In this document: piece by piece, positions 19,994 to 50,150 of the stretch | How positions within the stretch are numbered: the first letter of the stretch is position 1 | Layout: each line of letters starts with the position of its first letter | NCBI GenBank assembly: GCA_963920635.1 | Contig: OY987298.1 | Coordinates: 105,591,309 to 105,655,308, forward strand | Direction: 5' to 3' | DNA length: 64,000 nt | Source: Pseudeuparius sepicola | Lineage: Eukaryota; Arthropoda; Insecta; Coleoptera; Anthribidae | Position numbers and translations under genes: made by a program | Notes under the pieces: generated by a model | The model's database searches: none | Seen by the model: only the letters and a program-made list of their open reading frames with translations | What the model was told of the DNA's origin: nothing

Positions 19994-20100
19994 TTTCACA
20001 AAGACGCTGAACGATTTGCCGGGAAAATCAAGACAAAACTGGGAAATAACGCCATGTTACATTCGCAAATGCCCTCCGTCGGCTACTAGCCAAACTTGAA

Positions 20101-22529: not shown

Positions 22530-22646
22530 ATGACTGCCATTAACTCAACTTTATTTTTTCCACCCCTTATACATTTCATTTATAGAAGAGTTTCATTCAC
22601 TTCAAATTTTTTTGTTAATGTCAGTAACAATGTTGTCAAAATTTTT

Positions 22647-25600
22647 ATGAAGATGCTTCTCATCCCAAATTTCAGATTTTCAAGAAAAATTCTAAGCAAT
22701 AATATATGTCTCTACAATGTTTCTCTGTTAAAAGGGTAAGTAGTAAGATACGCTACGCATCATAAATAAATGCCACTTGTTTTAGAAACCATTCCAACAC
22801 GGTAAAAAGTCATTTTATGCTTCATGCAAGATGTAATAGTTCTTTGGAAAGGAAGTCCGTAAGATGTAAAATCGCTATTGTTACTGGCGGCGCCAATGGA
22901 ATTGGTTACCACATCGCCCGGAATCTGCTGAAAGCGGGAGCCCGGGTAAATTCTTTTAAATAAACGATTTTCTAAACAAGGGCCAGGTAACTTATAATAG
23001 ATCAAGTTCAGGTTGCTTGAGAGTTCGAACAGAAACTTTTAACTGCTTTGTATTGAAAGATTAATGTTAAAAGAACAAAGCGAGTTGAATTGAACTCGCT
23101 CAACGGTTGAACCTATAAAAATAGACGATTTGGATTGCATTTAGAAACTGTATTATTCTGGTTAGGAATGTGTGGGTTTGAACTTGTACTTTTTGAAATA
23201 AGCATATTATATCTAAGTACCTATGATTCTCCATAAAATGTGTACCAGTTTTTGGTTTTTCGCTTATATCTGGATAATACAAAATTTAATCTAACATAGT
23301 TTGAAACAAAATTGTATCTATTAATTTTGTTCTTATCCCTAGCCGATTTACAAACCGTTGATAACTGCTATTTTTTTCAAAAGTAACTTTCACACCAGGG
23401 TTTATGGACATACAGTTTGATACAGGTCTCGTACCTTCGAAACCAATAGGTATATTTAGAACAAAAGTGGAGTCTATTCAAAAAAATTATGACTTATTTA
23501 CGTTGCATCCAATTTAGTAGGTACCTACCTAAAATTAATTGAAATAAAATTAAACACGCCGTTCCGTACACATTTTGGTACAAAAGGCATACACCCTCTA
23601 TTACAAAATAACGCACAACAAATATCTGCACTATTTGCAATAAACAAAGTTTGAATAATAATTGAGCGACGAATTATTATTTCCAGGTGGTTGTTATAGG
23701 AGATGTATCCATTGAGGATTGTGAAGTAGCGGCATGCAAGCTCAACGAAAGATTCGGAGAAAACAAAGCATTTTTCCAGCCATGCGATGTTTCTTCGAAG
23801 GCTGACATGGAAAGTAATTCTGTTAGGAAATACTATTAAGTGAAAATTTTACTGTAATCATACCTGTTACAGAACTCTTCAGGTGTGTCATGACAAAGTT
23901 TGGCAAAATTGATATAGTAGTCAACAATGCTGGGATTTTGGCTGACAACGAAGTGGAGAAACAAATAGGTACAAATATCGTAAGTTTTCCAAATGTATAC
24001 ACTACCTATAATGCGTATTCATTACGAATATTTTCAATATAATAAAGATTCCCTATCTTGTTTGTGGAGCTTACAACAATGTATATACAAGATGAACCGT
24101 AATTACATACAAGGCGCCCCAGAAATAAGTGCCAAAATTGTAACCACGTATTGAAATCATCAAAAATTTTCCAAAATTTTTTTCGAAACCCCAATTTTTA
24201 CCCGGTATTTTTTTCCTTTAAAATAAAGAGATCATTATGATTACAGAAACACCGAAAACCGCATCTCGACATCTTGATCAGGAGATACAGGGCCTTTCAC
24301 AAAATGTAGCATTTTCTATTTCTACGTATGTAAATTTTTCATTTATCATGTGTTTCCATTTTCGTAAAAATATCCTTAACGCACTCTTGTGTGTAATTTA
24401 GTGAAGTAGACGGTAAGTTTCTAAATCTAGTCGTAACAAGGTGGATATGTATTTCAGGGGCGTGCAGTCCATGGAAGCAAGGGAAGCAGTGCTTCCCCTA
24501 AACCAAAACAATGTAAAATGATAAAATGTAATTTTTGAATTTTTAAATAGGAAGCAATTAGTTTAGTTACCTAGGTATATCAAAAACGCCAAAAAATATC
24601 TTATATATCATAAATATATCAAATCTACAATATGTTATGCCTATAGCAATTGCGGCGTTGACTCAGACTGCGCCCATCCTACCGAGCGACAGTGCAGTAC
24701 AATGTAAGCTATGCCGGCCGCTTTTCTGTAGCGTTCGACAGTCGAGAGGTTATTGAACTTTCCACCCACACCGCACTGGTTGACGCGAATGAGAACGCCT
24801 GTTTTAAGCGGGCGTGGAAGCTATCGTTGCATTAGGTTCTTTGTATAGTTTAGTTGGTTTTGATCTGAGTCGGTGCGTCGCGCGCGTCGTATCTCGGGCG
24901 ATATGGAAGACAATAATACGGACGTGGACATGCAAATACCGTCAACTTCGGCTGTCGGGAATGACGTTGAAAATGTTAAAGTTGGACAATTATTAAGTAA
25001 GAAGAGTGTGTGTGAATGTGTAGTGTATGCCTTAATAATAAAGGGATTTTCAACATTAAACTTTGCGGATAAGCTTCAATTAATTACAAACGGAAGAGCA
25101 AAACCCCCTATGAAAAATTTAACCACAAAAATGAATGAATGACTTTCACAGATATCGCTGTTGTCTATTGAGATTATACATCTCCAGAACATGTTAGAGC
25201 ATCGACGTTTTTATGATGACGTCATTGACGAATTCGCAAAAAGTGATCGAAGAATCGAATTACATTACAAATAGGTAAGTTTTTAAACATTGCTTCCCTT
25301 ACTTAAAATGTCACCGCACACCCCTGATTTATTGTTTTAAATGGGAAATCTTAATTAAAATCTTAAGAGCGTTGACTGAAGGTTTATCTTCACCCAACGC
25401 TTAAGAGTAGGTATAACTTAAAAATTATAAAAGAACCGCGATCTTCTGGAACGAATTCTACACTAAATGTTTTCAGAGAAATGAAAAATAATGTTCACAA
25501 ATAAAAGAGTTAAAACTTTGTGAGCTATCCAGATATGGACGTTATAGGCCGTTTCATCTAGACCTTCAGTATCGTAACTTTTTTATATTATGCTACTATT

Positions 25601-28600
25601 TTTCGTTTCTCTGAAAATATTTTTGCGTAGAATTCATTTGTGAAGATCGCAGGTTTTTTTATTTACCGTTTTTAAGTTCTAAATTATTAAGTAAGATTTC
25701 CCATTTGAAAAACATTTTTTGTTATACAGTGTTTTCCTAAAAGGTCTTTACAACACTCTACTAGTTATAGAGTAGATAAAAAAATAGAAATGTTATATAT
25801 TTTTTAAAATTTTAGACATAAAATCTTTAGAACTAATATATTATGGTTTAATACAATCCCAATTAAGTTATGATATTCTTGGTTGGGGAGGGGCGAATTA
25901 AAATTACTTAATAAAATTAGAAATTTTACAAAAACTGTTTTTAAAAATTATACATAAGTATATAAAAAATTATATGTACCCAACAAATGTATTATTCAAA
26001 GAAACAAATAAAATGAGAATAAGGCGGCTATATTGCTATAATATTTTACTGTATGAATAAATGCGCCTGTCACGTATTCCGAAATTTTACATCTTGGAAG
26101 GTAGCTTATTTATATTGTGAATATCAATTTTCTAAAATGAATCATAATAGCTTTTTTATCGTGCACACTCTGTAGTATAGTACAGAGCGCACGCTTTGGC
26201 ATTAATTTAATTTTTTTTATTTTATAAGTTTGCGTCATTTATTTTGTCAGACACGTATTTTTTAATACACATATTTTATTTGAAAGTGAAAAAATTAAGA
26301 TTATACCTTTTGTAATCGCAAACCGTAACCCGCCATAATTGACATATTCAGATTGAGGCAATTATGAGCAATTTCAATTAAAATTAGGTGTTGTGCAAGT
26401 TATAAGCTGTATATTGTTTAGGTAGCATAGAAACTTGTATATGCAGCATAAGATAAGGAAATACAACGTAAGCCCAGCAGAGGTATTATATACGGGCCAT
26501 AGACTAAGAGCAAACACTTCCTACTTGTATTCAATAAAGATCAGTTCTTTTTAAAAACGACTTTGCGTCAACCCGCCTCGTAACTGGCGCAGTCGTTCGG
26601 ATTTTTTTCGTGACACGAAGTCCAAAATTCGGCACCTTCGGTTCGTTTCAACGATTTAGTCACAAGAAAGAACCAAAACGGAATCTCGCGATCCGCCGCG
26701 TTATCCAAAAATCGGCACTGTCGCGGACGGACACCTGGTTCCACACCCCGAGGAGTTGGCACAAGGTTGTTGAGAAGACAAGGAGGAACGTCACAGGGGA
26801 CGACATCCACACATCGGCACTGTTTCCACCCCTTTGGCATCCACACATCGGCACTGCCAGAGGCTAAGTTAAGGACCTTAGGATTAAGAAGACAGAAAAA
26901 GAAGACAACGAAGAAGAAAAATCACATGAAGACTTCGATTTTCTTACAACTGTAAGTTTTTCTTTGCTTTGTATATTTGCACAATTTTTGTTTGTTCCTG
27001 TATTTTTTGTATTTTCCCAATTTCCACATTTTTGTCATTTTTAAATAATTTTTCAAAATGCCAAACGGAGCACCTGCAATTAATTATAATCTATTAAGAT
27101 ATCAGGCGGACAATATCCCTTTATTTGACGGAAACCCCAGACTTTTGCAACGTTTCGTAAATTCTTGTGAAAATTTTATTAAGGCTTTTCAAAATTTACA
27201 AAATTTAAACGATCCAATTAATATTTGTATTTTCGACACTATCTTAGGAAAACTCAGAGATCGAGCAGCAGATTTGATTGCTTCGCGATCAGAACTAAAT
27301 ACATGGAATTTAGTAAAAACCTCCCTAATTTCGACTTTCGCAGATCAAAGATCTATCGATTGCATCATTCAAGACTTAATCAATTTAAAGCCATTCAAAA
27401 ATGAAACACCCACTCAATTTGGTATGAGAATTCAAGATGTGAGAAGTTTACTTTTTGCAAAATTGAATGCTTCTGAACGAGACAATAACGTTAAATTGGT
27501 AAAAATTACACATTACGATGAATTTGCGTTAAAAACATTTATAAATGGTTTACCCTATAACATGCAACTGGTAGTAAGGTTAAAAAATCCAAATTCTCTC
27601 GAGCAAGCAATGTCATTTGTAGTCGAAGAAGAAAATTTCGTATATTTTAAAACATCTCAGAATCAAAATCTGAAACAACCAACCTACAGTACCATAAATA
27701 CCCAAAAACCAAAATTTTTCCCACAAAGATTACATACCTATACACCTAGCTTTTTACCAGCCAATCATAATATAATTCCACCACCACCACAATTTAGATC
27801 CTTACCAAGTACATCAAATTTCGTACAACCATATTCTCCACAAATTATGTACAGGCCCCCCTTTCAAAATAATTTTCAAACAAATCAATCAAGCTTACAA
27901 AGACCAATTTTCCAAAATAACCAACCAAATTTTCAAAGACCACCCTTCCAAAATAGTCAACCTAATTTCCAAAAACCAACCTTTCAAATGAGACCTTCAT
28001 TGTTCCAAAATCAAAAAATTCCACAGCAAAGTACTGTAACAAAAAATACTTTTAAGCCCGAACCAATGGACACAACCACTTATGTAACTCAACAGAAAAA
28101 ACCTTATCAAACTCGATTATTTAGCAATTTCATGGAATCATTCCCTACCGAAAACATAAACCAACCTAATGAACAAACTTATAACAACCCTTATGAACAA
28201 ACTCCCGAAGAAGATACTTCTTTTGACATGAGCGAATTTTACAATAATTTAGACTATTTACAACCCGACACCCAAAACGAAGAAATTCAAAATTTTGAAA
28301 CTAATATCCAGACTAATCCCGATATCCCTTTGGATTTTCCCAATACTGGACAGACCAACAATATGAAGTGATAGTTTTAAACAATCTTTCAATAAACCTT
28401 GTATATATATATTTACCCGAACTCGATGCAAAATTTCTAATAGATACTGGTAGTACACGTTCATTTATTAATCAAAAATTAGCGCATACATATTTTCAAA
28501 ATTACATTCAAAATGAGATATTTTTGGTGCAAACCGCACATGCTACTTCTTTTCATGATCAAATAGCAATTTTACCCTTATTTCCAACTTTCAACACTGA

Positions 28601-31600
28601 AGGATATCATAAATATTTTATTTTCGACTTTTCAGATAAATTTGACGGATTAATTGGACTAGACCTAATAAAACAATTAAATGCTGATATTCGATTTAGT
28701 CAAAAAGCTTTAGAATCACCAAACGCGAAAATACCGATATATTCGCAAATCACCGAAGACAATTTACCACAACCGAACCCAATTTTAAAACCCACAACAG
28801 AAGTTATACCGCCAAGAACAATACAAAAAATTAAAATCCCTGTTAATATACAATCTGGCATAGGTATTCTAAATTACACACAATTGAATGAAATGGAAAT
28901 TCCCCATTGTTTAGTAAATATAGAAGATAATTTTGCTTTAACTACAATTTTAAACCCTACGGATAACCCAATTCAACTTGATATTTTTGAACCTTTTGAA
29001 GTCGAACCTGTCAACGCTAACGAAGTAAATTTTATAGAAAATTCCGATTATGAATCTGATAGTTACCAAAATTTAGAAATACACTTGGAGAACAAATTAA
29101 AAGAAAATCTAAAAAACTTACGTCTACAACACTGCAATTCTGAAGAGCGCAACCAAATTCGAAAACTTTGCCTAGAATTCAAAGATATTTTTTATTGCGA
29201 GGATATTCCTTTAACTTTTACCAACCAAATTAAACACCATATAAATTTAACTAATGATTCTCCTATTTTTACAAAAAGTTATCGATACCCAGAAGTACAT
29301 CGTGAGGAAGTTAAATTCCAAATTTCAAAACTATTAGCTCAAAATATTATTCGAGACTCAAACTCCCCGTGGTCATCACCAATCTGGATAGTTCCTAAAA
29401 AGCAAGACGCATCTGGAAAAACCAAATGGCGTATGGTTATTGATTATAGAAAATTAAATCAAAAAACAATTGACGATAAATACCCTCTCCCGAATATTAC
29501 TGAAATTTTAGATAAACTAGGACGCAGTTGTTATTTTACTACACTTGATTTAGCAAATGGATTTCACCAAATCGAAATGAACCCTTCCGATATTCCAAAA
29601 ACCGCATTTAGTACTGATACCGGGCACTATGAGTTTCTACGAATGCCTTTTGGTCTTAAAAATAGCCCTAGTACCTTCCAAAGAGTTATGAATAACATAT
29701 TAAGAGGCTTACAAAATGAAATATGCTTTGTCTATTTAGACGATATTATTATTTTTAGTACATCCCTCCAAGAACACATCTCTAGACTCCGCGAAATTTT
29801 TACCAGACTTCGAAATGCAAGATTCAAAATCCAACTCGACAAATCAGAATTCCTACGAAAGGAAGTCCAATATTTAGGTCACCTGGTTACAACAGATGGT
29901 ATTAAACCCGATCCAAGCAAAATAGCAGCAGTAAAAAATTTTCCCGTTCCACGAACGTGTAAAGAAATTAAATCCTTTCTCGGCTTACTCGGTTACTACA
30001 GACGCTTTATCAAAGACTTCGCTAAGATTACAAAACCCATGACTAAGTGTTTAAAGAAAGACGCGAAAATAGAGCACACACCTGAATTTATGCAAGCTTT
30101 TGAACACAGTAAGAATTTATTAATGAATCACCCTATATTAATTTACCCCGACTTTTCAAAACCTTTTATTTTGACTACAGACGCGAGTAATTACGCCCTA
30201 GGAGCCGTACTTTCCCAAGGACAAGTTCCCCATGATAATCCAATAGCTTATGCATCTAGGACCCTAAATGAATCCGAAATAAAATACTCGAATATTGAGA
30301 AAGAATTATTAAGTATAGTCTATGCATGTAAATATTTTCGGCCTTACCTATTCGGACGTAAATTTTATATCTATACTGATCACAGACCCCTCGTATGGCT
30401 TTTCAACCTAAAAGAACCCAATTCGAAATTAGTACGCTGGCGACTACGCTTAGAAGAATTTGACTTTGAAATCATATATAAAAAAGGCTCTCAAAATTTA
30501 AACGCAGATGCACTATCGCGAATACAACTCCATATTTACGAAAATCAATCAACAATTAATAACCCTGGCGAAGTAAATAAAGAAATTTTTGACTATTTAA
30601 AAAATATTTGTGAAAATCCAGAACTAGACGAAGACAAACCACCTGAAAACCCTATTCCAGAGACTTCACGAAAAATAAAAATAATTTCTGACATCCAAAT
30701 AAGACCTCCTAACATACAAAAATCTGATACTGTTCATACAACTAACACCGAAACTGAAAATGACGGAATCCCTATACTAGACGAAATGATTAATAATAAA
30801 ACATATCAATATTTAATTAAAAAGAATCCCCTTGAAAGAATTAAAGTTACTTTTGAAAAATTTGAAAGTCATAATATAAATCATTGCGAAATTCCTAAAA
30901 ATCCACAAATTATCTCAAATTTTATTAAAGAATATTTTTCAGGAAAACAACAAGCATATCTATATTTTTATGAAGAAGATTTATTTAATATATTCAACAA
31001 CGTATATCTAAAAAATTTTAGAAAGTTAAAATTAATACGCTGTACAAAATTACTAAACAATGTATCCAGTGAAGAAGATAAAAAATTACTTTTATTACAC
31101 CAACATGAAAGTAAAACAAACCATCGTGGTATTTCAGAAACTTATGAAAGAGTAAAGTCAAATTATTACTGGCCCCATTTAAAGGATAATGTAACAAAAT
31201 TTATTAATGACTGTGTAACGTGTCAAACTTTAAAATATAGTAGACAAAAATCGTATGTACCTCTAGTAAAAACAGAAACGCCTACAAAACCTTTTCAAAT
31301 CCTACATATGGATACTTTTATTTTTGAGAATCAAAATTTTCTCACTATATTTGATAAATTTTCCAAATTTGGACAAGCTTTTCCTTACGACAAAAACGCT
31401 AAATCTGTATGCGATAAATTAATATTATTCTTTTCATTTTTCGGCTGTCCCGAAAATATAGTTACGGATAAAGGAACAGAATTTAATAACGATCTTTTAA
31501 AAGAGCTTCTAAAAACACAAAAAATTAATATCCACTTTACGACAACAGGTCACCATGAATCTAACTCTCCCGTAGAAAGGTTTCATTCTACTTTAATTGA

Positions 31601-37600: not shown

Positions 37601-40600
37601 ATAATTATATAAATAATATTCTTCATGTCCGACACTCAAGCCTTTTGTTACAATAGTCTTACAATCCCTTTTTCTAAGCATATGCTAAACGGCTTGTGTG
37701 AGAAAATGGTAGAAATTTCTAGATTTTTTTAAATTATGTATAATTATTAATGTGATGACCATGTCCGACACGCAAGCCTTTTGCTATCTAGTCTTAGAAT
37801 CACTTTTTCTAAGCATATCTCAAACGGCTTGCTTGAGAAAATGGTGGCAATTTTCATAAATTTTCCTGCAACTTTCCTATGTTCTGAAAATATGAAGGCC
37901 ACACTCTACACTCAAGCCAATTTTTTTTTAAATACTCTGACATTCATAACTTTTTATTGCAATTAATTTCGTTCATGGAAAAATAACTGAAAAATCGAAA
38001 AAAATTTCCGTTAAATTTTCCGACCCCAAAATGTACTTATCCATTCGCGCCACTCAAGCCAATATGTTTTTCGGGCTAGTGACGATGTACGTTTTCATAC
38101 GTTCGATGGGCTTGTGTGGAAAAATCGGTCAAAATTTCGATTTTTCCTTACAAGACTACGCCCTCATTTCAACCCTTTAGCCACCTGCAACACTCAAGCC
38201 TTTGGTTTTCCGAAGTCAGGTTCTATTAATTAATCATTTAATGGACATGGCTAGCGTGGAAATATGGGCAACAAACACCTTTTATTTCTGTTCAGGAAAA
38301 TCGAATTTTCCAGGTGTTATCCCCAGAGGCTACTCGTAAATTTCCCTTCATTCTACTCAGCATCGATGTACTTTTCAACCCTCTTCGAGGCTAGTGTGCT
38401 AAAATGGGGCACCTAAATATGTCGCTAGCTGACGGTCTATTATGTGGAAATACAATTAGATTGTGTGGAATAAAGTGGCTTTATATTATAATTTAAACCT
38501 TTAGCCGAAGCCGAAGTTATTATATGTACATAATACTTGCAGACGGGCGTGGTGTACGGCACGCTGCTCGGCTTCGAGCACATGGGCGCCCACAAGGGCG
38601 GGGCCGGCGGCGTCGTCGTCAACGTGTCGTCCGTGTTCGGGCTGCAGCCGTGGCCGCCGTTCCCCCTGCACACCGGCACCAAGCACTTCGTGGTCGGCTT
38701 CACCAGGGCGCTGGGCAACGAAATGTTCCACGACTTGGCAAAGGTCAAGACGATAGCGCTGTGCCCCGGTATCACCGTCACCAACTCCCTGATGCGCGCC
38801 AGGGCGAGGACACTGCCCGGCTTCGAGACAATTGGGGAACAAGTGGACAAGAGCATTCTGTCCTATCCGGTGCAAGAGTACGTACGTTAGATGCCACTTT
38901 CTTAGTCCTACCATTGAGTAAAGGAATAATTTATTCCTTTACTCAATGGTCCTACCCAAAGGCATCGTATCACTAGACCCCTTTATTTATTAACCGGGAG
39001 ATAGTGACAGATTTTTGGACGTGATTTTACTCAGTATGCCTTGCAAAGGGCATTATGTGGCACATATTCTCACAATAATCAGGTATGAATCAGAGAGTCA
39101 TTCTGGGTTCTTCATGTGAAAAACTGAGTTTTCAATCATTCGAAAAATATGCGTTTTGATATGATTTTATACAGGCTGCCATGTTTTTTATAATGAAGTT
39201 CAAATAGAAAATTCCTCGGAAAACCATAGGCATACCGTTAGGGTGGGTCCAAAGGGCTATTATTGCCACGTGATCTTGTATTTTAATAATTATTTTTTCC
39301 ATGTTTCTGAACAGGCTGCCAATGAGAAGTATGCAAGTTCTTATTATGAAAATGCTGAAAAAAGGATGGCATACCGTTTGCGCATGTCCAAGTACACTTT
39401 ACATCGAATATCTCGTTTAAATGATTAAATAACATTCAATTTAAGCAGTACTTGGACATGCGCGAAAGGTATGCCATCCTTTTTTCAGCATTTTCATAAT
39501 AAGAACTTGCATACTTCTCATTGGCAGCCTGTTCAGAAACGTGGAAAAATTAATTATTAAAACACAAGTTCACGTGGCAATAATAGCCCTTTGGACCCAT
39601 CCTAACGGTATGCCTATGGTTTTCCGAGGAATTTTCTATTTGAACTTCATTATAAAAACCATGGCAGCCTGTATAAAATCATATCAAAACGCATATTTTT
39701 CGAATAATTGAAAACTCAGTTTTTCACATGAAGAACCCAGGGTGACTCTCTGATTCATACCTTTTTATTGTGAGAATATGTGCCACATAATGCCCTTTGC
39801 AAGGCATACTGAGTAAAATCACGTCCAAAAATCTGTCACTATCTCCCGGTCTATTACCTATTTCGCGCTTCCAAGATATACCTCACATTCTAAACCTCTA
39901 GCGGTTCCAACAACGCCGTGATTGTTGTCTGGTAACAATAAAAACCAAATTGTAAATGGCCGCGCAAAGACGTCAAGAAGTGAGTTTTGTGTTATCTATA
40001 AAATAGTGCTTGTGTCACAAAAGTAAAAGAACACGATGGTGAGACGGTGTTGCGGGTGCAAAAGAACGGATTTCCAAGATGAGAATCGGTCATTTCATAG
40101 GTAAGTAGGTATTATTATCTGAGGTCAGAGTTGTCGAGCAGTAGCGTCCTTTTATTCAAAAAATATCCATAAATTTCTATAGGAATTAGGTATAGAGTAC
40201 AAAGTGATTTTTATTTTATCAGATATTTTTGACTACATGTTTTGACATGTTTTTTTTAAATAACTACAACCCTTTATCTTATCCTAATTTATATATTTTC
40301 ATTTTCAGGTTTCCAACAGATTACACGCAAAGGAAAACATTGCAATTTTGGGATTTAAGCCAAACAAAATGTTACCTCGGAGAGAATTAATATGCTCGGA
40401 ACATTTTTTAGAGAAAGATTTTTATAGAAAAATAAAATTGGTGTCAGGGTATTAGCCCCCATGCCAATCCGTTGGCATTTTATGAAGATAACAGTGATTT
40501 TGCAAGTCCAAAGTAAGTATAATAATTGTTGGAGTCTGACCCGTGATTGATACACCTGTTTTATCAGTACGATTTTAGATATTACAGTACCTATCTATAT

Positions 40601-43600: not shown

Positions 43601-46600
43601 TGTTGTTTTTTTTATTAGAATGCGTTTATTTTATGTTCGTTTTTGACTTATTATTAGATACACCCTTGAGTTTATGTTTTATTTTTTAAACGCAACTTTC
43701 ACACCAGGGTTTTGCAACTATTATGTACCTACTTCCTAAACCATATATTCTTACAAAGGTGCTCAGAAACGTTGTTGTAGAAAATTATCTTCAAAATGGT
43801 ATATAAAAAATTAAGTCAGTCTATATTATACGTCAAAAGATATATCTACATATATAATATTTGCAAAATTCATAAAAATATTTTCTTATTCTCGACCACC
43901 TTGCAGTTTCTGTTGTGGAAACCTACACCAGGGCCAATAATATTCAGGCTCAACCTATAAAAGACGACGAATCTGTTTGAGATCTTCTCATAACTTTGAT
44001 TTTGAGACTAAGTGCTCAAACTGTAGTTCGAACTGACCACCATTTCCTACGTTTACTTAAAGCTTTTCTCTTTTCTTCTTTTGAAGTCATCGTCAATTAG
44101 TTTTGACTCCAAAAGTACGCGAATATCTTAAACTTGCAGTATCGTCGCATTCCGTAGGTTGTGATGTACAAAGGCTGATGCCTGCGTTTTCAAATGAGCA
44201 CCAATACTTTTATTAGGTATGGTGTGGCTTTTCCTACACGAGGTATGAACTTTAAGGGATTTAGGCCAACAAAACAATCTGATAACTACTTCACCAACGG
44301 ATGTTGTGAGAGCATATAAAGGAACTAAATTGGCCACACCAGCGGTCGACCAACAGCAACTGCAAGGTGGTCACCTGCCGGGTTCTCCTCGGACAAAGGT
44401 AAGGGTACGCTTCTGTTCACACTCGAATCAATCAGAAAATAAGAAAATATTGTTAGGGATTTTGCTAACAGGTACCCAAGTATTCACTTTCAATGTAATA
44501 GGTATCTTCTGCATCTCAACATCTCTACATTATACGTCCAAGAACGTAGTGAGAAAATTATCTTTGAAAAAATAACAATTTTCAAAGGTTTATAACTAGA
44601 AAACGGTTGGAGATAGAGGAAAAAACCATAGACACTGTTTTGTTCCAAATTTTATATGGTTTAATTTTGTATACCTATAATTTATTTTCGATAGGACCAA
44701 CCATTATCGATCTCTAAACACCTCCGAACACAGATAAAGTGTCAAAAGAGTGCGCACAAAAGTCTGCTTACAACCCGTTTTTGAGCATTCATTAACTGGA
44801 TAAAATGTTATTATTTGATTTTCTTGTCTATTAGGAACAAAACGAGGGAATATAAACACATGATTATACATTATTTATGAAAAGAGTTGTTACTCAATTT
44901 TACAGACTATCATCATTAGAATGAAAGGTAATATCTAGTACCTCAGTTTCTATTAGAAAATAACATCAAATAAGAACATTGAAAAACCGGTAAGAATGTT
45001 GAAATAATATCGTGTATGTACCAATTATTCTTTTTCGATTCACTTGAAAACTAATAATACAAATGTACCTACGACCTACTACTATTTGGTCTCAATGTAA
45101 AGCTTTTTATGAGATCTTTCCAACGATATTTGAGATTTTGAAGTTGGGGTGAGGGTGCGTACGGAGATCCTCCATCTCCGTGAGATGCCAATTGCGCCAT
45201 TTTGGCCCCTTTCTGAGATATAAGACGTGGTAAGTTTTAAAAATGTTATTCCGTATATATAAAAAAATATATGGTGGACGTCCAAAATATTTATAAGTAG
45301 ATACCAAGATAAAGCGATTTGAAGAGACTGAATAAAATTACTTCACTCCATGATGCAACAACAGAAATGCTATAACGGTCGTTGAGGCAGAGGCTTTGTG
45401 CTTTCATTTCTGGGGACTTGAAGTATCATAAAATTTTTTGCCGGGTGCCCGCTTCGTGTGACGACGTCAAACATTGTACGTAAAAGAAGTGGCTAACAAA
45501 ATATTCATCTTATCGTTCTAGAGGCAAGTTGCAGCCGCACCGTTTAGGCCCGTAACATTTGTCCATTTTTCCTTGTCAGAGAGATTATTAGGTTTTGTAT
45601 ATCTTTGATATTTTGGGGGGCGCCGCTTATTTGATTGATTGATCTCCTCTAGCGTATCACTGACGGTGGGGGCGTTAGCATAAACCCAGTGCGAATATTC
45701 TGCATTGCAGGTCGGCTACGGGTTATTATTTCTTTAGGTCGGAATGGTTGGATCATAAAACTGCTCTGTGTGTTGTGTGCTTTTGCAATTCTTTAGTGTC
45801 CATCTAATAAACTTAGTGCTTCTGCAGGAATCGAAATAGGCTCTTATGTAGTATCACGGAAAATATAGTTCCACAACAGAAAGCTCCTTAACAATACCTG
45901 TCAAATGAACTCAAACTACAGACTCCAAAAACAAGCAGATTGCTTTTCTTATCAAGTGATATTTTATCAAAATATAATCTTCCCAATTCGTAGATTACCC
46001 AACATTTAATAGTGGACCTCAATATCAATGCATTTGGAAAATATTAAGCTTCAAAGTTGGAGTCCATTTGACAGTTGTCAATAAGGAGCTCTCTGTTCTG
46101 AATATATTTTCTGTGGTAGTATGTATAGGTACATACTCTGTCTAACTTTTTATCAAGAATTTCGCATATCATGCGAAATAAAAAGTTTTTCATTTTATCG
46201 ACTCTATCAATAAATTTAACACCATAGGATGCTTTCTCTGTTTCCTGAAATTGTTTGAAGTAGATTTGTAACTTAGTTATATTTTACACATTTTGCAAAT
46301 AGCAATTTTATCGGATTTGGGTTTTATTTGGAAAAAATTCAAAATTTCTGATGATTTAATTGACTCTTTGGGGCTATAATTCCTAATTTCTCAACTATAT
46401 TTTTTAGCTAACAAAATTCCATACACTTATATTTTATTATAACTATGAATATGACTGATGTTCAAGCACGAACTATCAATTTGATATAAAGTGGAAATGT
46501 AATCTCTAGGAGCTGATTGCGGGAAATGAATGGGCGGTTCGCCTACCTTGTTCGTCGTACCCTGTCTTGTAGAAGTATGACCGGCGAATCTTCGAATCTG

Positions 46601-49600
46601 CGGGAGGGCCCTCCGTGGTCTCGTACGGCTGGATCGACGCCCGTCGGTTAGGAAAATCGCGGATAGCGGGCACATGCGGTGTGAATAGGACCACCTCTGT
46701 TTCGGCACTGTCCTTGATTTTACTTTTCAGCGGCACTAGCGAAGCCCCGGTTTCTTCTGGCACGCACGCGCATAGTAATAAGGGCGGGCGAACCAATTCC
46801 ATGAATTCAAATATCCAAGAAATTTAAACTTCTTAACAATAACATCTAATCCTTCTAATACCCAAAAGAAAACTGATTTGTTTTGAATACTTATAATATA
46901 ACCCATTTAATACTAAACAACTGATGAAAACTTTAATTATACTTGTATTTTCATTTTGTCACATCCATCTATACTTTTTAGCGGTGAAATAAGTAAACAG
47001 AATCTAATCTCTACACCTTCTCGATGGTTTTTCCAAAAATGTCTTTTGCCTATTTATTTTCTTTTATTATCACTTACCTACAACACTTTTGTGTAACCAC
47101 ACAATAATTATTACCACCTGAGCTTGCTTCTGGCAAATAAATTTGAAATAATGCTCCTAAGTAAATCCTTTCTTGGATTAATATATTATATTCAAATTTT
47201 GTAAAATAGGCAACAAGTGCATACGATATTTTCTTGAACCAGTAGATATCATTTTCCTAAAAATCTGTGGTCGGACTTCCACTGTCGTTTGGAAACGTCG
47301 CGTTTAGAAATAAATCAAGACAATGGACAATACGCGATCAGGTCTTTATTGTTGCCGGTGACGAGAGCAGCGATTAATTGATGAATTCTCTCCTCAACTA
47401 CCACTACCACCTTTATAGAACAACTCGAAAAACCAACAAATTTCAGTCGATATTTTTATTTTACAAACTACGCAAATTCTTCAATCGTTAGGTTGTCGCT
47501 AGTTTATTTAATCACTCTCTCTTATATGGTAGAGGTAGGTACATGAAAAACCAGCACAAACAAATATCTAATATTTTTATTTTCACAATTTTGCATATTA
47601 CAATTTCACATTTCTAAATTGTTTACTTAACTCATACTTAATAATGATGCCTTTCAACTTTTCCAATTCGTCTATATGTCGTTGCAATCTCTCACAGATC
47701 ATTTTTCAGAAGTAAATATAATACAAGTCGTTTTACCAACCGGACCCAAGCTACTTAAAAAATACCTTATCTCTTCGTTCTTGAGCTAATTTATCCGTAA
47801 ACCGCTGGGGTAGAATAGTCTTGAAGTCTGCGAATTCCACAGCCACCTTTTCACCATACTTAGTATTTATTATCTTAAAACTCTGAACCTAAAACTTTTC
47901 AACCAGATTTTCCAGCAACAAAGTCATATTTAGATTATTTAAGAAGGGCATGTTTCTTATCAATTTGTTGCACACAAGTAAACACTGTTAATGATCACAG
48001 TTGAACCTCACTATATAGCTATTTCAATGGAAAGGAGTGAATGGGATGTAGTGGGGGATCCAACCCTCACCCTACACCTAACCGATAACCTACTATGAGA
48101 GCATGACGCCAAATCGATATCTCCCACCAACACCTATGAGAGTATCACGCTAGACAAGTCTCGACAAGTTTGGCGTCATACTCTCATGGTCTTACTACTA
48201 GCGAAAATTTGCACTTAACAATTTTTTTTATAGATTCGCCGCTGCAGCTAAAACCTAAAACCGCAGTTACTTTTGCAGGCGGTCGTTGTTTTCCTACAGC
48301 CTCCGCAAGTACCTCCTGCCATTAGTTAATTTTCAGATAATCTTGTTACCATGTTGTGTCAATGTAATGCAACAAATTAGTATTCCCGCAAATGCGGCTT
48401 ACCTCACGCCCGAGTTCCGTTTGCTTTATCAAATAATGAAGTCTTTATTTCCAGGGCGTGCGAAGTGGGACAACATTTAATCAAACTACTTGAAGACGGC
48501 CAAAACGGGAGCGCGTGGGTTGCCGAAGGAGGAGAGCTGTACCAAGTCAACTTCTATGATAAAAAGTTAATGAAACCGCCAGAGAGGGCGCAAGGTTCCA
48601 ACGATTGCGATATGTCAGATTGCGTTCCGAAAAAAGGAAACATTGCCGCGCCGGAGACCAAAAAATCAGAACAAAAGCAAGCTGCCACTGAAGGCCAGAA
48701 AAGGGATTCAAAGTTAAGAAGTCGATTTGCCAAGAAATGGCAGAAAGCTAAAATACAAGACTCTGTCAAAAGTGACGAAGGGAAAAAAACTGATTCTATC
48801 AAGAATGAACCCATAGAAAGCGGGGGTAAGCTGTCTCAAGTGGTTGTGGGAGAAAGTAGAAAGGTACCAGAAACTGCCAAAAGAGGCCCCGAGAAAAAAG
48901 CTAAACCTGCCAAGAGAGAAGCGGTAGTGGGACAAACTGGAAAGGTGCCAGAAACTTCTACAAAAAGTGTAGAGAAAAAAGTTTCCCCTGAAAAAACAAT
49001 CAAAAGCAAGGACGATAAAAATGAAAAACAAAATACCCATAAAAAGAAAGACTGCTCAAGTGAAAAGGCCGACAAAAAGCAAAGTTCCGAACCTAAAAAC
49101 ACGCAGACAATAGTGGGTCAAGCTGCGAAGGCGCCAGAAACTTCTAAAAAGAGTGAAGAAGGAACAGTTGCCCCTGAAAAAACAACCAAAAGCAAGGATG
49201 ATAAAAAGGAAGAACAAAATATCCACAAAAAGAAGGACCGCTCAAGTGAAAAGGTCGACAAAAAGCAAAGTTCCGAACCTAATAAGAAAAACGCTCCAGG
49301 TAAAAAGAAGGAAGAACATAGCAAGAAAGAAGACGACCCTTGTAAAAAGAAGGAAGACCCTTGTAAAAAGAAAGATTCTAATAAACAGATAGAGTCCTCA
49401 AGTAAAAAAGAAGACAAGAAGGCGGACGATCCTTGTAAAAAGAACGAAGATCCTTGCAAAAAGAAGGAAGACCCTTGTAAACAAGACGACCCTTGCAAAA
49501 AGAAAGACGACCCTTGCAAAAAGAAAGACGACCCTTGCAAAAAGAAAGAAGACCCTTGCAAAAAGAAAGAAGACCCTTGCAAAAAGAAAGAAGACCCTTG

Positions 49601-50150
49601 CAAAAAGAAAGAAGACCCTTGCAAAAAGAAAGAAGACCCTTGCAAAAAGAAAGAAGACCCTTGTAAAAAGAAAGAAGACCCTTGCAAAAAGAAAGAAGAC
49701 CCTTGCAAAAAGAAAGAAGACCCTTGCAAAAAGAAAGAAGACTCTGGCAAAAAGAAAGAAAACCCTTCCAAAAAGAAGGACGACCCATCTAAAAAGAAAG
49801 AAGATGCCTGCGAAAAGAAAGAAGACCCTTGCAAAAAGAAGGAAGACCCTTGTAAAAAGAAGGAAGACCCTTGTAAAAAAGACGACCCTTGCAAAAAGAA
49901 AGAGGACCCTTGCGAAAAGAAAGAAGACCCTTGCCAAAAGGACGACCCTTGCAAAAAGAAAAAAGACCCTTGCGAAAAGAAAGAAGACCCTTGCAAAAAG
50001 AAGGATGATCCTTGCAAGAAAAAAGATCCTTGTGAAAAATATAAGTCAAAAACAAAAGATTGCGGTAAATATGAACTTAAGGAGAACCCTAATAAAAATT
50101 CCGAAAAATTAAAAAATGCCGAATCTGGGGATGCTCCAAAGGAAGCATAA
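22647..50150 (+). CDS. SDR gene C: dead-site SDR fused to a DPCKKK-repeat tail
   Basis: Six exons join in phase to 837 aa: 22647-22735, 22786-22945, 23687-23813, 23873-23979, 38543-38877 and 48455-50150. The first 57 residues are rich in Arg, Lys and Ser with a single acidic residue and fit a mitochondrial presequence; an in-frame ATG at 22530 would add 39 residues. The SDR core has TGGANGIG (63-70), GD with Asp89 for NAD, NNAG (143-146), the Asn of TNI and Ser191. The catalytic Tyr is His204 (LHTGTK), one base from Tyr, while Lys208 stays. After the conserved NGSAWVAEG the frame runs on into about 520 residues of Lys-rich tail, ending in nearly 30 DPCKKK-type repeats, the motif of Drosophila Don Juan, a sperm mitochondrial-derivative protein. 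I infer a non-catalytic sperm component. Introns 4 and 5 hold an errantivirus and many repeats. Confidence 0.87.
22946..23686. other. Gene C intron 2
   Basis: Intron between the first Rossmann exon and the 127-nt exon. I see no gene, repeat or mobile element in it. Confidence 0.5.
23980..24454. other. Start of gene C intron 4
   Basis: Opens with gtaagt after the 107-nt exon. A GATACAGGG motif at about 24285 resembles a Tc1-type terminus, but I found no partner. No gene. Confidence 0.4.
24455..25326 (+). mobile_element. Internally deleted hAT transposon
   Basis: Terminal inverted repeats begin CAGGGGCGTGCAGTCCATGG at the left and the near-complement ends CACCGCACACCCCTG at the right. The 8-bp flanks (ATGTATTT, ATTTATTG) match at six positions, compatible with a worn hAT duplication. 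It carries a plus-strand remnant (24873-25270) joining the start of a transposase to its very end. The 872-bp size and missing centre make it non-autonomous. Confidence 0.7.
24873..25273 (+). pseudogene. hAT (ZMYM1/TTF-type) transposase, N- and C-ends only
   Basis: From 24873 the frame reads an acidic N-terminus, then FSTLNFADKLQLITNGR and KPPMKNLTTKMNE, then stops at 25140-25142. In another frame just downstream comes LLSIEIIHL, FYDDVIDEFAK and a stop, which resembles the C-terminus of ZMYM1-like hAT transposases. The catalytic centre between is absent, so the deletion joint is near 25140. The family name rests on my memory of these proteins. Confidence 0.6.
25337..25707. mobile_element. Imperfect foldback, about 370 bp
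   Basis: Outer ends AAATGGGAAATCTTA and its complement TAAGATTTCCCATTT are inverted, and further inverted blocks (GAATTCTACACT / GTAGAATTC, TTTTCAGAGAAA / TTTCTCTGAAAA) follow. It sits 10 bp from the hAT element. Non-coding. Confidence 0.6.
25821..26060 (+). pseudogene. Non-LTR retrotransposon RT C-terminal fragment
   Basis: One frame reads SLIQSQLSYDILGWGGA-like sequence, then LQKLFLKIIHK, NYMYPTNVLFKE and RIRRLYCYNILLY. This is the thumb/C-terminal region seen at the end of LINE reverse transcriptases. One TAA interrupts it after WGGAN. It lacks the catalytic core and any 3' tail. Confidence 0.6.
26061..26393. other. Left flank of the errantivirus
   Basis: AT-rich intron sequence with no recognised feature. 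It ends with the target sequence TGCA (26394-26397). Confidence 0.5.
26398..26585 (+). repeat. Errantivirus 5' LTR
   Basis: 188 bp, from AGTTATAAG to CGTAACT, with AATAAA at about 26532-26537 (CAATAAAGATC). It matches the 3' LTR base for base on reading. The last T begins the primer-binding site. Confidence 0.93.
26585..26602 (+). promoter_or_regulatory. Primer-binding site, tRNA-Ser type
   Basis: TGGCGCAGTCG follows directly on the LTR. It complements the CGACTGCGCCA 3' end that I associate with insect tRNA-Ser, the primer of the 17.6/297/ZAM group. Confidence 0.7.
27058..28371 (+). CDS. gag: Errantivirus Gag
   Basis: 437 aa. It forms the particle core that packages element RNA in the cytoplasm. 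The N-terminal two thirds (about 1-200) has the retrotransposon Gag fold pattern, including FDGNPRLLQRFVNSCENF and LKPFKNETPTQFGMRIQ. The C-terminal third is Gln/Asn/Phe/Pro-rich with repeated FQNNQPNFQRPPFQN-like units and no CCHC zinc knuckle, as in many errantiviruses. The ATG follows a 450-nt leader. It ends TGA 28369-28371, and pol lies one base back (-1). Within the overlap is CCCTTTG at 28326-28332, in the correct register for a -1 slip. No internal stop. Confidence 0.92.
   Translation: MPNGAPAINYNLLRYQADNIPLFDGNPRLLQRFVNSCENFIKAFQNLQNLNDPINICIFDTILGKLRDRAADLIASRSELNTWNLVKTSLISTFADQRSIDCIIQDLINLKPFKNETPTQFGMRIQDVRSLLFAKLNASERDNNVKLVKITHYDEFALKTFINGLPYNMQLVVRLKNPNSLEQAMSFVVEEENFVYFKTSQNQNLKQPTYSTINTQKPKFFPQRLHTYTPSFLPANHNIIPPPPQFRSLPSTSNFVQPYSPQIMYRPPFQNNFQTNQSSLQRPIFQNNQPNFQRPPFQNSQPNFQKPTFQMRPSLFQNQKIPQQSTVTKNTFKPEPMDTTTYVTQQKKPYQTRLFSNFMESFPTENINQPNEQTYNNPYEQTPEEDTSFDMSEFYNNLDYLQPDTQNEEIQNFETNIQTNPDIPLDFPNTGQTNNMK
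28326..28332 (+). promoter_or_regulatory. Candidate -1 frameshift slippery heptamer
   Basis: CCCTTTG fits X-XXY-YYZ with gag codons CCT and TTG, about 37 nt before the gag stop and after the last pol-frame stop (TAA near 28314-28316). I could not fold the downstream RNA for a pseudoknot. Confidence 0.5.
28368..32150 (+). CDS. pol: Errantivirus Pol (protease, RT, RNase H, integrase)
   Basis: Open for 1260 codons in the -1 frame relative to gag; the listed start is where the frame clears gag, and translation is expected by frameshifting. Order of domains: aspartic protease (LIDTGSTRSF, about residue 26), reverse transcriptase (VIDYRKLNQKT and the YLDD catalytic box, about 456), RNase H (TTDASNYALGAVLSQ, about 603), integrase zinc finger HHCC (from about 910) and integrase core (HMDTF, TDKGTEFN, SPVERFH, about 980-1070). 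All named catalytic residues are present and no stop interrupts, so the polyprotein looks functional. It copies the RNA into DNA and inserts it. Confidence 0.95.
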   Translation: MIVLNNLSINLVYIYLPELDAKFLIDTGSTRSFINQKLAHTYFQNYIQNEIFLVQTAHATSFHDQIAILPLFPTFNTEGYHKYFIFDFSDKFDGLIGLDLIKQLNADIRFSQKALESPNAKIPIYSQITEDNLPQPNPILKPTTEVIPPRTIQKIKIPVNIQSGIGILNYTQLNEMEIPHCLVNIEDNFALTTILNPTDNPIQLDIFEPFEVEPVNANEVNFIENSDYESDSYQNLEIHLENKLKENLKNLRLQHCNSEERNQIRKLCLEFKDIFYCEDIPLTFTNQIKHHINLTNDSPIFTKSYRYPEVHREEVKFQISKLLAQNIIRDSNSPWSSPIWIVPKKQDASGKTKWRMVIDYRKLNQKTIDDKYPLPNITEILDKLGRSCYFTTLDLANGFHQIEMNPSDIPKTAFSTDTGHYEFLRMPFGLKNSPSTFQRVMNNILRGLQNEICFVYLDDIIIFSTSLQEHISRLREIFTRLRNARFKIQLDKSEFLRKEVQYLGHLVTTDGIKPDPSKIAAVKNFPVPRTCKEIKSFLGLLGYYRRFIKDFAKITKPMTKCLKKDAKIEHTPEFMQAFEHSKNLLMNHPILIYPDFSKPFILTTDASNYALGAVLSQGQVPHDNPIAYASRTLNESEIKYSNIEKELLSIVYACKYFRPYLFGRKFYIYTDHRPLVWLFNLKEPNSKLVRWRLRLEEFDFEIIYKKGSQNLNADALSRIQLHIYENQSTINNPGEVNKEIFDYLKNICENPELDEDKPPENPIPETSRKIKIISDIQIRPPNIQKSDTVHTTNTETENDGIPILDEMINNKTYQYLIKKNPLERIKVTFEKFESHNINHCEIPKNPQIISNFIKEYFSGKQQAYLYFYEEDLFNIFNNVYLKNFRKLKLIRCTKLLNNVSSEEDKKLLLLHQHESKTNHRGISETYERVKSNYYWPHLKDNVTKFINDCVTCQTLKYSRQKSYVPLVKTETPTKPFQILHMDTFIFENQNFLTIFDKFSKFGQAFPYDKNAKSVCDKLILFFSFFGCPENIVTDKGTEFNNDLLKELLKTQKINIHFTTTGHHESNSPVERFHSTLIEHLRILRQKEKSKPISEIIPYAIIAYNSTTHNTTKFSPHELILGHTNSRDPFDLISTTFYTDYVSSHKEKLDTLYETALQNTETQKIRMLEKHNKKGDETEFKLNQTVYKKFSPSSRNKSKKKFCGPYKIIEMIENNTVKIEKIGDPTKHEIIHIKELKRPLITDGPTSSLDAPPESIPSSTS
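32151..33802 (+). pseudogene. env: Errantivirus Env, interrupted by one in-frame stop
   Basis: Env-like reading frame running from just inside the pol end (the start is normally supplied by splicing, so the exact 5' end is unclear) to TAA 33802. The surface part begins with an NPGILPYKLG-like stretch. A furin-type site RNKR is at 32417-32428, followed by a glycine-containing hydrophobic stretch, the usual place of the fusion peptide in errantivirus and baculovirus F-type proteins. A TAA at 32528-32530 breaks the frame about 33 codons after the cleavage site. Downstream the frame is open for 419 codons with several Cys and one C-terminal membrane span (about 33660-33730). It is broken as read; sequencing error or recent mutation are both possible. 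Confidence 0.8.
33836..33846 (+). promoter_or_regulatory. Polypurine tract
   Basis: AAGAGGGGAGG directly before the 3' LTR, the expected plus-strand primer site. Confidence 0.8.
33847..34034 (+). repeat. Errantivirus 3' LTR
   Basis: 188 bp, same sequence and same AGT...ACT ends as the 5' LTR. It is followed by the target duplication TGCA at 34035-34038. Confidence 0.93.
34039..34683. other. Gene C intron between errantivirus and foldback
   Basis: AT-rich, no gene or clear repeat seen. Confidence 0.5.
36079..37594. mobile_element. Foldback element, copy 2, nested
   Basis: Second copy of the 6030-7426 element with both termini: CAGGGTGAGTTTTTTTTCGA on the left and its complement ending CTCACCCTG on the right. 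TA precedes the left end; the right flank is CA, so the duplication is worn or lost. Each arm is roughly 500 bp. The centre (about 36719-36814) repeats the transposase scrap, with extra small indels. Confidence 0.8.
36719..36814 (+). pseudogene. Tc1/mariner transposase fragment, second copy
   Basis: Same segment as 6576-6680 but with deletions around the WPP motif, so the frame is broken. SWIGR and the FFLWGTV region are still legible in different frames. Confidence 0.6.
38543..38877 (+). CDS. Gene C exon 5: SDR active-site exon
   Basis: 335 nt, the same length as the equivalent exons of genes A and B, with acceptor cttgcag and donor gtacgt. Visibly far more GC-rich than its surroundings and than the paralogous exons; the third codon position is nearly always G or C in the first half. 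It encodes Ser191 and Lys208 but has CAC (His204) where A and B have the catalytic Tyr codon. ARARTLPGFE replaces the family's variable substrate-side loop. Part of the 22647-50150 gene. Confidence 0.88.
38910..38950. repeat. Perfect hairpin, 20-bp stem, 1-nt centre
   Basis: ACCATTGAGTAAAGGAATAA, one T, then its exact reverse complement. It starts 32 bp after the exon donor. No target duplication. Confidence 0.9.
38993..39850. mobile_element. 858-bp foldback
   Basis: Arms of roughly 400 bp starting ACCGGGAGATAGTGACAGAT and ending with the complement; the centre is at about 39430. The TAGACC-AGATAG-GACAGATTT terminus is shared with the 34684-38442 foldback. No transposase scrap is recognised. 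Confidence 0.85.
40036..41567 (+). pseudogene. THAP-domain gene fragment, frameshifted
   Basis: Exon 40036-40100 opens MVRRCCGCKRT, the first Cys pair of a THAP zinc finger, and ends at gtaagt. Exon 40309-40512 continues FPTDYTQRKT, then must change frame near 40338-40345 to read LGFKPNKM, ELICSEHF and the rest of the THAP C2CH module, then meets TAG. Another in-frame piece, 41376-41567, is acidic and Ser/Thr-rich (TASETEAIILKQL) and ends in a stop. THAP domains bind DNA in regulators and in P-type transposases. It lies inside gene C intron 5 and is broken as read. Confidence 0.65.
40840..41310. mobile_element. TIR element with a nested palindrome
   Basis: AGAAAAGTGCCCTTATTGTAGC on the left (about 40835) mirrors GCTACAGAAAGAGCACTTTTCT on the right (about 41280-41302). 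The inner CAAAGTAGGCCTAGGCTT block also occurs in the 14011-14611 element, so they are relatives. A separate near-perfect palindrome (about 41035-41270, arms beginning AAGAGGTGGTTGCCGACAGC) is inserted in it. Confidence 0.6.
41568..43262. other. Gene C intron 5, no gene seen
   Basis: AT-rich, with two poly-G runs (about 41779-41791 and 42421-42432). No coding region or recognisable element. Confidence 0.4.
43263..43285. repeat. Perfect hairpin, 11-bp stem, 1-nt centre
   Basis: GACACTCAGCT, one G, then its exact complement. The next hairpin begins five bases later. Confidence 0.9.
43291..43327. repeat. Perfect hairpin, 18-bp stem, 1-nt centre
   Basis: ACGTGAAAGCCGAGCTGA, one G, then its exact complement. 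It shares the GAGCTGA core with the hairpin just to the left. Confidence 0.9.
43328..46507. other. Gene C intron 5, no supported gene
   Basis: AT-rich. A TATAAA at 44315-44320 is followed about 80 bp later by CAAAG then gtaagg; this could be a nested promoter with a short first exon, but nothing downstream supports it. Confidence 0.35.
46508..46802 (-). CDS. Candidate exon of an unknown gene
   Basis: A GC-rich island in AT-rich intron. On minus it is open for 98 codons from ATG 46802 (MELVRPPLLLCACVPEETG), through FTPHVPAIRDFPNRRAS and SYFYKTGYDEQ, to a stop at 46506-46508. A plausible donor (CAAG then gtaggc) lies near 46540. Base composition and a balanced residue mix resemble a real exon more than a chance ORF. 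I do not recognise it. The overlapping plus-strand ORF is less protein-like. No partner exon is found within gene C's intron. Confidence 0.35.
46803..48454. other. End of gene C intron 5
   Basis: No gene seen. Includes one short inverted-repeat element (48092-48189). Near 47300-47345 AATAAATC and GTCTTTATTG occur, but no LTR pair is evident. Confidence 0.4.
48092..48189. repeat. 98-bp inverted repeat (MITE-like)
   Basis: TATGAGAGCATGACGCCAAA on the left and the near-complement ending GACTCTCATG-type sequence on the right. A third, internal TATGAGAGTATCACGC copy lies between them. Confidence 0.55.
48455..50150 (+). CDS. Gene C last exon: SDR end plus Don Juan-type tail
   Basis: The acceptor ttccag and phase match the previous exon (GA then G). 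The first 44 codons are the counterpart of the final exon of genes A and B; where those stop, this frame continues for about 520 codons. The tail begins with three degenerate modules, each opening VVGES/VVGQT/IVGQA, then K-PET, of which the last two also share KSKDD and KKQSSEP. It then has nearly 30 units of DPCKKK plus E or D (about 49339-50035), coded by an almost perfect 21-nt repeat. The tail is extremely basic, Cys-periodic and probably disordered until cross-linked or metal-bound. Stop at 50148-50150; AATAAA follows at 50346-50351. Confidence 0.88.
49339..50035 (+). repeat. Coding minisatellite, 21-nt unit (DPCKKKE)
   Basis: Unit GACCCTTGCAAAAAGAAAGA plus one base, repeated nearly 30 times with some 18-nt units. 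The middle block (about 49495-49735) is almost invariant at DNA level, while the outer units have diverged, as expected if copy number changes by slippage or unequal crossing-over in the middle. Confidence 0.92.

Follow-up and report, generated by a model that had tools for sequence, protein, structure and literature searches.

Drosophila Don Juan carries DPCKKK repeats, and we know of no enzyme domain in either Don Juan or Don Juan-like. Don Juan is located in mitochondrial derivatives (PMC10645079), and DJ-GFP lies within the major one (PMC6388916). Drosophila paracrystalline material also contains the S-Laps, duplicated enzymes with changed catalytic residues, of which recombinant S-Lap1 and S-Lap6 are inactive; in the parts of PMC6388916 drawn on here, no repeat tail is mentioned for them. 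A further enzyme, Bb8 GDH, has been found in the insoluble fraction of the sperm paracrystalline material (PMC6388916; PMC11012351). For beetle sperm a crystallised mitochondrial matrix is described in PMC9143785, none of its proteins being named in the parts of that source used here.

The window analysed here is a stretch of 64,000 nucleotides from Pseudeuparius sepicola, whose genome measures 769 Mb, and lies within a contig of 153.6 Mb; it holds a gene, gene C, which joins features of these systems. Its Lys-rich end, with 21 exact DPCKKK units, is of the kind that Don Juan and Don Juan-like carry; unlike these two, as far as is known, gene C also has an enzyme domain, the likeness lying in the Lys-rich repeat motif. 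With the insect 15-hydroxyprostaglandin dehydrogenase-like SDRs it shares the whole classical SDR domain, including TGGxxGIG, NNAG and the Asn, Ser and Lys of the active site, but departs from them in the exchange of the catalytic Tyr for His, in its leader and in a tail of about 520 residues. Like the S-Laps, the tailed SDR and the tailed GABA transaminase (GABA-T) described below are duplicated enzymes with changed catalytic residues, although the S-Laps are another enzyme family.

Gene C within a tandem of SDR genes

Joined from genomic DNA, gene C comprises six exons on the plus strand (Table 1) and 837 codons with no internal stop; its introns are GT-AG in five of five cases, with phases 2,0,1,0,2, and exon 6 sits within a 589-codon open frame. 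The preliminary description had proposed a single phase-consistent gene model, which holds in its coordinates, in the 38877-48455 joint and in its phases, which are those of the neighbouring gene B. The start codon is uncertain, as in-frame ATGs at 22530, 22647 and 22653 share one open frame.

Table 1. Coordinates of the features, counted from the first letter of the window unless a contig and locus are named
Feature	Position	Strand	Remarks
Gene A exon 5	1183..1517	+	335 nt; catalytic Tyr kept
Gene A last exon	5085..5217	+	ends RKN*, without tail
Gene B	8065..17672	+	SDR copy in tandem; 6 exons including a leader exon; catalytic Tyr present, tail absent; 299 aa
Gene C exon 1	22647..22735	+	presequence-like leader; 5 K/R and no D/E in first 30 residues
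Gene C exon 2	22786..22945	+	end of leader, then TGGANGIG cofactor motif
Gene C exon 3	23687..23813	+	127 nt, length common to A and B
Gene C exon 4	23873..23979	+	107 nt; NNAG motif, catalytic-site Asn
Gene C exon 5	38543..38877	+	335 nt; SDR-site Ser and Lys kept, Tyr replaced by His
His204 codon (CAC)	38669..38671	+	replaces active-site tyrosine
Gene C exon 6	48455..50150	+	last ~45 SDR residues, then tail and stop codon
Gene C tail	48576..50147	+	from residue 314; 524 aa, 30% K, 6.3% C, net charge +48
DPCKKK array	49335..50042	+	28 DPC units, 21 exact DPCKKK
Two adjacent DPCKK(K)-repeat genes	contig C9, L010 6758-9457 and L011 5116-7023		900- and 636-codon frames

The product of gene C matches PF00106 (adh_short) with an E value of 1.8e-42 (145.5 bits; curated cut-off 26.6), and its closest solved relatives are photoreceptor dehydrogenase 5ilg (E 3.7e-42) and 15-PGDH. 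This match and the presence in the alignment of TGGANGIG, NNAG and the catalytic Asn, Ser and Lys bear out the whole SDR fold that had been claimed; the exchange of Tyr for His, also claimed, is confirmed at position 204, so that the Asn-Ser-Tyr-Lys tetrad is incomplete. The product is thus a member of the SDR fold that has probably lost its enzyme activity. The leader had been called presequence-like, and its composition agrees with this; the leaders of the 7 tailed SDRs measured contain 3-6 K/R and 0-1 D/E in their first 30 residues, and the gene C product may be imported into mitochondria, as its leader suggests.

Gene C is one of three SDR genes, A, B and C, that follow each other on the plus strand. 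Gene A, whose start lies 7.9 kb beyond the left edge of the window, reaches to 5217; a search for its leader exon found none. The last four exon lengths are common to A and B (127, 107, 335, 133), and B and C agree in all five intron phases as well as in the lengths of exons 3, 4 and 5. Both A and B end in an exon homologous to exon 6 of C, with RKN* and RVNC* respectively, so the earlier claim that the tail begins inside the exon that ends its neighbours is correct; an origin of the tail by read-through of the ancestral stop would fit this arrangement.

The repeat tail

The tail had been described as about 520 Lys-rich residues with nearly 30 DPCKKK units. Its length and composition stand, but the array consists of 28 DPC units, only 21 of which read exactly DPCKKK; they are spaced 6-7 residues apart, save for two breaks. 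Adjacent units differ chiefly at synonymous sites: over 25 pairs of neighbouring seven-residue units, pN/pS is 0.23 in frame, as compared with 0.66 and 1.64 in the shifted frames, values which, since pairs from a tandem array are not independent, amount to a strong indication of in-frame constraint on the repeats and to no formal test. Taken together, the PF00106 match, the like architecture in other beetles and the in-frame constraint of the repeats place gene C beyond chance. A sequence search of the PDB with the exon-6 open frame gave no match up to E 1. A search with a Lys-rich query also came upon about 7 kb of repeat DNA in G000 (C1:2894460-2901185), with frames of about 2271, 2279 and 2281 codons.

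Tailed SDRs in other beetles

Among the matches listed, the proteins nearest the SDR come from species that we take to be leaf and longhorn beetles. The SDR tree has 20 rows, made up of the three window genes and 17 pieces of 16 proteins from listings of 120 and 42; P0005, P0011, P0012, P0015-P0021, P0125, other pieces of P0121 and P0124 and everything else listed lie outside it, and the exon-wise trees also exclude Prorops P0121a. Over the whole domain, a nine-row clade (support 99/94) unites gene C with the tailed beetle SDRs, while A and B fall outside; exons 2-4 support it at 98/95, and exon 5 alone gives an unsupported grouping (82/77).

An SDR with a C-terminal extension is found in Phaedon, Rhamnusium, Leptinotarsa, Gonioctena, Exocentrus and two Brassicogethes proteins, that is, in seven of the eight rows of the clade from outside the window; the eighth, Acanthoscelides P0004, cannot be judged, as the predicted protein breaks off ahead of the last SDR exon in a short basic stretch. 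The fusion is thus old and predates this species. Phaedon P0002 (507 aa) comprises a leader, the SDR and 13 DPC units, and the partial record Rhamnusium P0001 has two; Leptinotarsa P0123, Gonioctena P0003 and Exocentrus P0122 carry other Lys-rich tails with 0-1 DPC, the tail of Brassicogethes P0009 is Pro-rich, and Brassicogethes P0124 also extends behind its second SDR. As DPC content varies so much, the shared trait is the tail and not DPCKKK itself; judged across these orthologs, this Lys-rich extension changes fast, DPCKKK being one of the forms it takes. P0001-P0004 and P0009 come from a search that also admitted untailed lengths, P0122, P0123 and P0124 from one that admitted long proteins only (at least 0.55 times the query, about 460 aa for the SDR and 557 aa for the GABA-T used below), so that untailed members of the clades could be missed. 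Exocentrus P0122 contains an A-like and a C-like SDR within one predicted protein, which suggests that Exocentrus has the same tandem order.

Loss of the catalytic tyrosine

The gene had been presented as an SDR pseudoenzyme fused to a tail; the tyrosine is indeed lost in gene C, but this is not a property of the fusion, since the loss affects two of the nine rows of the clade. In the full alignment the tyrosine is missing from four of 20 SDR rows: gene C (H), P0006 (H), P0010 (F) and Brassicogethes P0009 (T), the last having lost the Lys as well. Within the tailed clade only gene C and Brassicogethes P0009 are affected; the tyrosine is kept in the remaining seven rows, namely all six other Chrysomeloid rows and one of the two Brassicogethes rows, so that in these orthologs a role as enzyme is possible.

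P0006 is a tailless metagenome SDR that has the same exchange of Tyr for His and lies outside the tailed clade; either the change has independent origins, or the history of exon 5 is a different one. In gene C, which is otherwise AT-rich, exon 5 has a GC3 of 0.89, as compared with 0.34-0.46 in the other exons. Among columns invariant in six orthologs, gene C departs at 12 of 59 in exons 2-4 and at 14 of 50 in exon 5; when each of the six orthologs is left out in turn, it departs at 0-8 of 50-67 invariant columns. Exon 5 may have been replaced, or it may just have evolved fast. A transfer of exon 5 from another SDR, considered in view of its GC3 and of the His in P0006, may have taken place, but the exon-5 tree gives no supported placement; GC-biased conversion as the source of the changes in gene C finds no support, the amino acids being hardly skewed (GARP 0.30 in exon 5, against 0.26-0.30).

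A GABA transaminase with the same tail

A genome search with the tails yields at least three further genes with DPCKKK, of which one lies on contig C4 and two lie on C9 (among the best 77 of 145, 83 of 159 and 71 of 89 candidates scored). The C4 gene has eight exons, with GT-AG introns and one weak donor (gtccat), and its product of 1012 residues consists of a GABA transaminase, which solved structures match at E 2e-111, and of a 520-residue tail behind it that contains 30 DPCKKK. The product has the same whole aminotransferase class III domain as eukaryotic GABA transaminase (1ohv, 4y0d), from which it differs by this tail and by K329R and R192E, whereby both the PLP lysine and Arg192 are lost. 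The numbering, which we take to be the 4y0d index plus 9 (K329, R192, F189, S137), was checked by index. The alternative assignment of the PLP lysine to the second lysine of FSKK was discarded after an index check on the alignment, which places it at the first; it is this first lysine, in the catalytic place, that is absent from the tailed copy.

The GABA-T tree has 12 rows, the P. sepicola gene and 11 pieces drawn from 10 of the 120 proteins in a listing restricted to long ones. In it the C4 gene forms a 100/100 clade with Exocentrus P0161, Phaedon P0162 and the first half of Leptinotarsa P0160; K329 and R192 are lost in all four rows of this clade and kept in all eight others. The tails of the Exocentrus and Phaedon proteins (144 and 135 residues) are Lys-rich and without DPC; that of P0160, which merges two GABA-T copies, is not readable. 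Three further GABA-T copies adjoin the tailed one; by eye in the alignment, all three keep both residues, and they stop directly after the enzyme domain, without a tail. A duplicate that lacks catalytic residues thus stands beside intact copies twice in this genome, SDR C beside A and B, and the tailed GABA-T beside its three neighbours. By eye, the four tandem GABA-T genes (L009, L043, L044; C4 2622-2650 kb) also adjoin cullin-like frames; in Asbolus P0163, cullin domains and a GABA-T are predicted in one protein, so this gene order may be shared.

The GABA-T array gives a pN/pS of 0.07 in frame over 25 pairs (0.99 and 1.28 out of frame), and that of the 636-codon gene on C9 gives 0.08 in frame over 7 pairs; across the three arrays the shifted frames range from 0.66 to 2.46. 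The 900-codon gene on C9 yielded no unit pairs at seven-residue spacing. The SDR array is written mostly GAC CCT TGC and the GABA-T array mostly GAT CCC/CCT TGT; neither was therefore recently copied from the other. In the two C9 genes no Pfam domain was found, nor a presequence-like start in the open frames seen, so that the DPCKKK motif is not tied to mitochondria; they are candidate partners of the tailed enzymes.

A structural role and its alternatives

The reading favoured here, as plausible if not quite probable, is that the tailed SDR is a non-catalytic structural protein of mitochondria, with the mitochondrial derivatives of sperm as its likeliest place. Gene C would be the third copy of a tandem 15-PGDH-like SDR cluster, whose Lys-rich, Cys-containing C-terminal extension would date from an ancestor shared by several beetle families and which, in P. 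sepicola, additionally lost its active-site tyrosine. Its product would be imported into mitochondria and fold and oligomerise as an SDR does, perhaps with NAD binding retained, the folded domain serving as an oligomeric brick which gives a regular assembly. In the tail, acid-Pro-Cys would alternate with Lys runs, placing a cysteine at about every seventh residue, and the charged tails of neighbouring assemblies might be linked via salt bridges and disulfides. Each tandem family, SDR and GABA-T, would have kept working copies while one copy became tailed, and the GABA transaminase duplicate would have gone the same way, down to the tail motif. Such a protein would most likely reside in the mitochondrial derivatives of sperm, within their matrix; in Drosophila, this is where inactivated enzymes, the S-Laps, are packed.

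A wider version of this model takes DPCKKK-type tails as a recurrent assembly tag: in leaf and longhorn beetles, tandem duplicates of two or more unrelated enzymes would have become independently tailed, with Lys/Cys-rich ends, and non-catalytic, and would build up, together with DPCKKK-only partners, a crystalline and cross-linked scaffold in the sperm mitochondrial derivative, as the beetle counterpart of the S-Lap crystal. We regard it as possible but doubtful.

The strongest alternative is that the tailed SDR and GABA-T act in the larval or adult soma, for example as a mitochondrial scaffold or as a tethered gut or fat-body enzyme, with a likeness to Don Juan that is due to convergence of Lys/Cys repeats. 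It draws on Leptinotarsa larvae, second instars with RNA measured at 72 h, in which proteasome RNAi reduced the ortholog LOC111509358 to 0.10-fold and the HPGD-like LOC111509361 to 0.15-fold, both being among the five most significantly lowered genes in the RNA-seq, according to the part of PMC12639069 used here. As LOC111509358 was quantified in larval RNA it is transcribed in larvae, and it is not sperm-only unless the signal comes from the larval testis; a purely sperm role is thus not the simplest reading of the data in this part of the source. The control larvae may have moulted on, and larval testes may contribute to the signal. The catalytic tyrosine kept in seven of the nine rows of the tailed SDR clade also speaks for the soma; against it stand the tailed GABA-T clade, whose lack of both catalytic residues in all four rows fits a structural role, and the site of the mitochondrial structure of inactive enzymes described in the parts of PMC6388916 used here, which is sperm. 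Larval transcription and a Leptinotarsa tail that is not DPCKKK are what holds the structural role in sperm mitochondria to its tentative grade and makes the somatic one, though rather unlikely, the next to be considered; the tyrosine kept in the six other Chrysomeloid rows and the untailed GABA-T neighbours pull in opposite directions and leave this weighting unchanged.

It is improbable that the tail is a slippage-grown repeat, tolerated and without a task on an ordinary enzyme, and His204 the loss of one species. Repeat number and type do vary widely among orthologs, and the prevalence of the tyrosine in the clade would agree with a working enzyme; but the array has its low in-frame pN/pS (with the dependence of its pairs noted above), the same motif occurs on an unrelated enzyme of the same genome, and an extension is present in every non-window row of the clade that can be read.

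A model for yet another reading, in which the SDR has been turned into a reserve of Lys and Cys, is the SDR-related Drosophila Fbp2, a proposed Met reserve. The larval transcription of the Leptinotarsa ortholog (PMC12639069, in the part used) and the extreme composition of the tail would suit such a storage protein, but the presequence-like leaders and a regular unit of 6-7 residues, in place of mere composition, make it very improbable. That the gene model is an artefact, made up of an SDR gene that stops at exon 5 and an independent repeat-protein gene that begins in exon 6, is hardly credible in spite of the long introns (14.6 and 9.6 kb, the longer one holding an LTR element), as the SDR C-terminus opens exon 6 in the right phase, the same exon exists in A and B, and the same joint recurs in other beetle proteins.

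The structural reading has a known kind behind it, that of enzymes recruited as structural proteins; such a tail on an SDR and on a GABA-T may be new. The titles and abstract openings searched name no SDR or GABA-T with such a tail, which does not imply its absence from print, and as a text string DPCKKK occurs in two papers of the collection searched, whose titles and abstracts deal with analgesic peptides and with arthropod anti-inflammatory peptides. Two unrelated enzymes in one genome have taken the same path, from tandem duplication through 3' growth of a Lys/Cys-rich tail to loss of active-site residues. In beetles, surplus enzymes seem to have become building material repeatedly; this would be a repeatable case of enzymes becoming structure, in which the intact sister copies are built-in controls. 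If the sperm mitochondrial derivative is the true site, the tailed enzymes become candidates for the components of the crystalline matter in beetle sperm.

Mobile elements in the window

The 14.6-kb intron 4 of gene C contains a gypsy/errantivirus-type LTR retroelement (26398-34037, plus strand), which is by its sequence a young insertion. Its terminal repeats of 191 nt are 99% alike, and it includes pol (RVT, RNaseH, integrase), an env-like frame (Baculo_F, 1e-26) and a gag-like frame without a Pfam match. To the left of exon 5, nested long inverted repeats (34683-38440; arms of 69-296 nt, 82-98% alike) are probably another mobile element, and directly behind exon 5 a palindrome is visible by eye around CCATTGAGTAAAGGAATAA (38543-38960 region). 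Between genes B and C lie fragmented transposase-like frames (18726-20056, minus strand), of which the piece 18726-19250 matches DDE_3 at 3.2e-6, slightly under the curated cut-off. The integrase-core open frame of another retroelement is found at 61336-62253 on the minus strand (rve, 2.9e-12).
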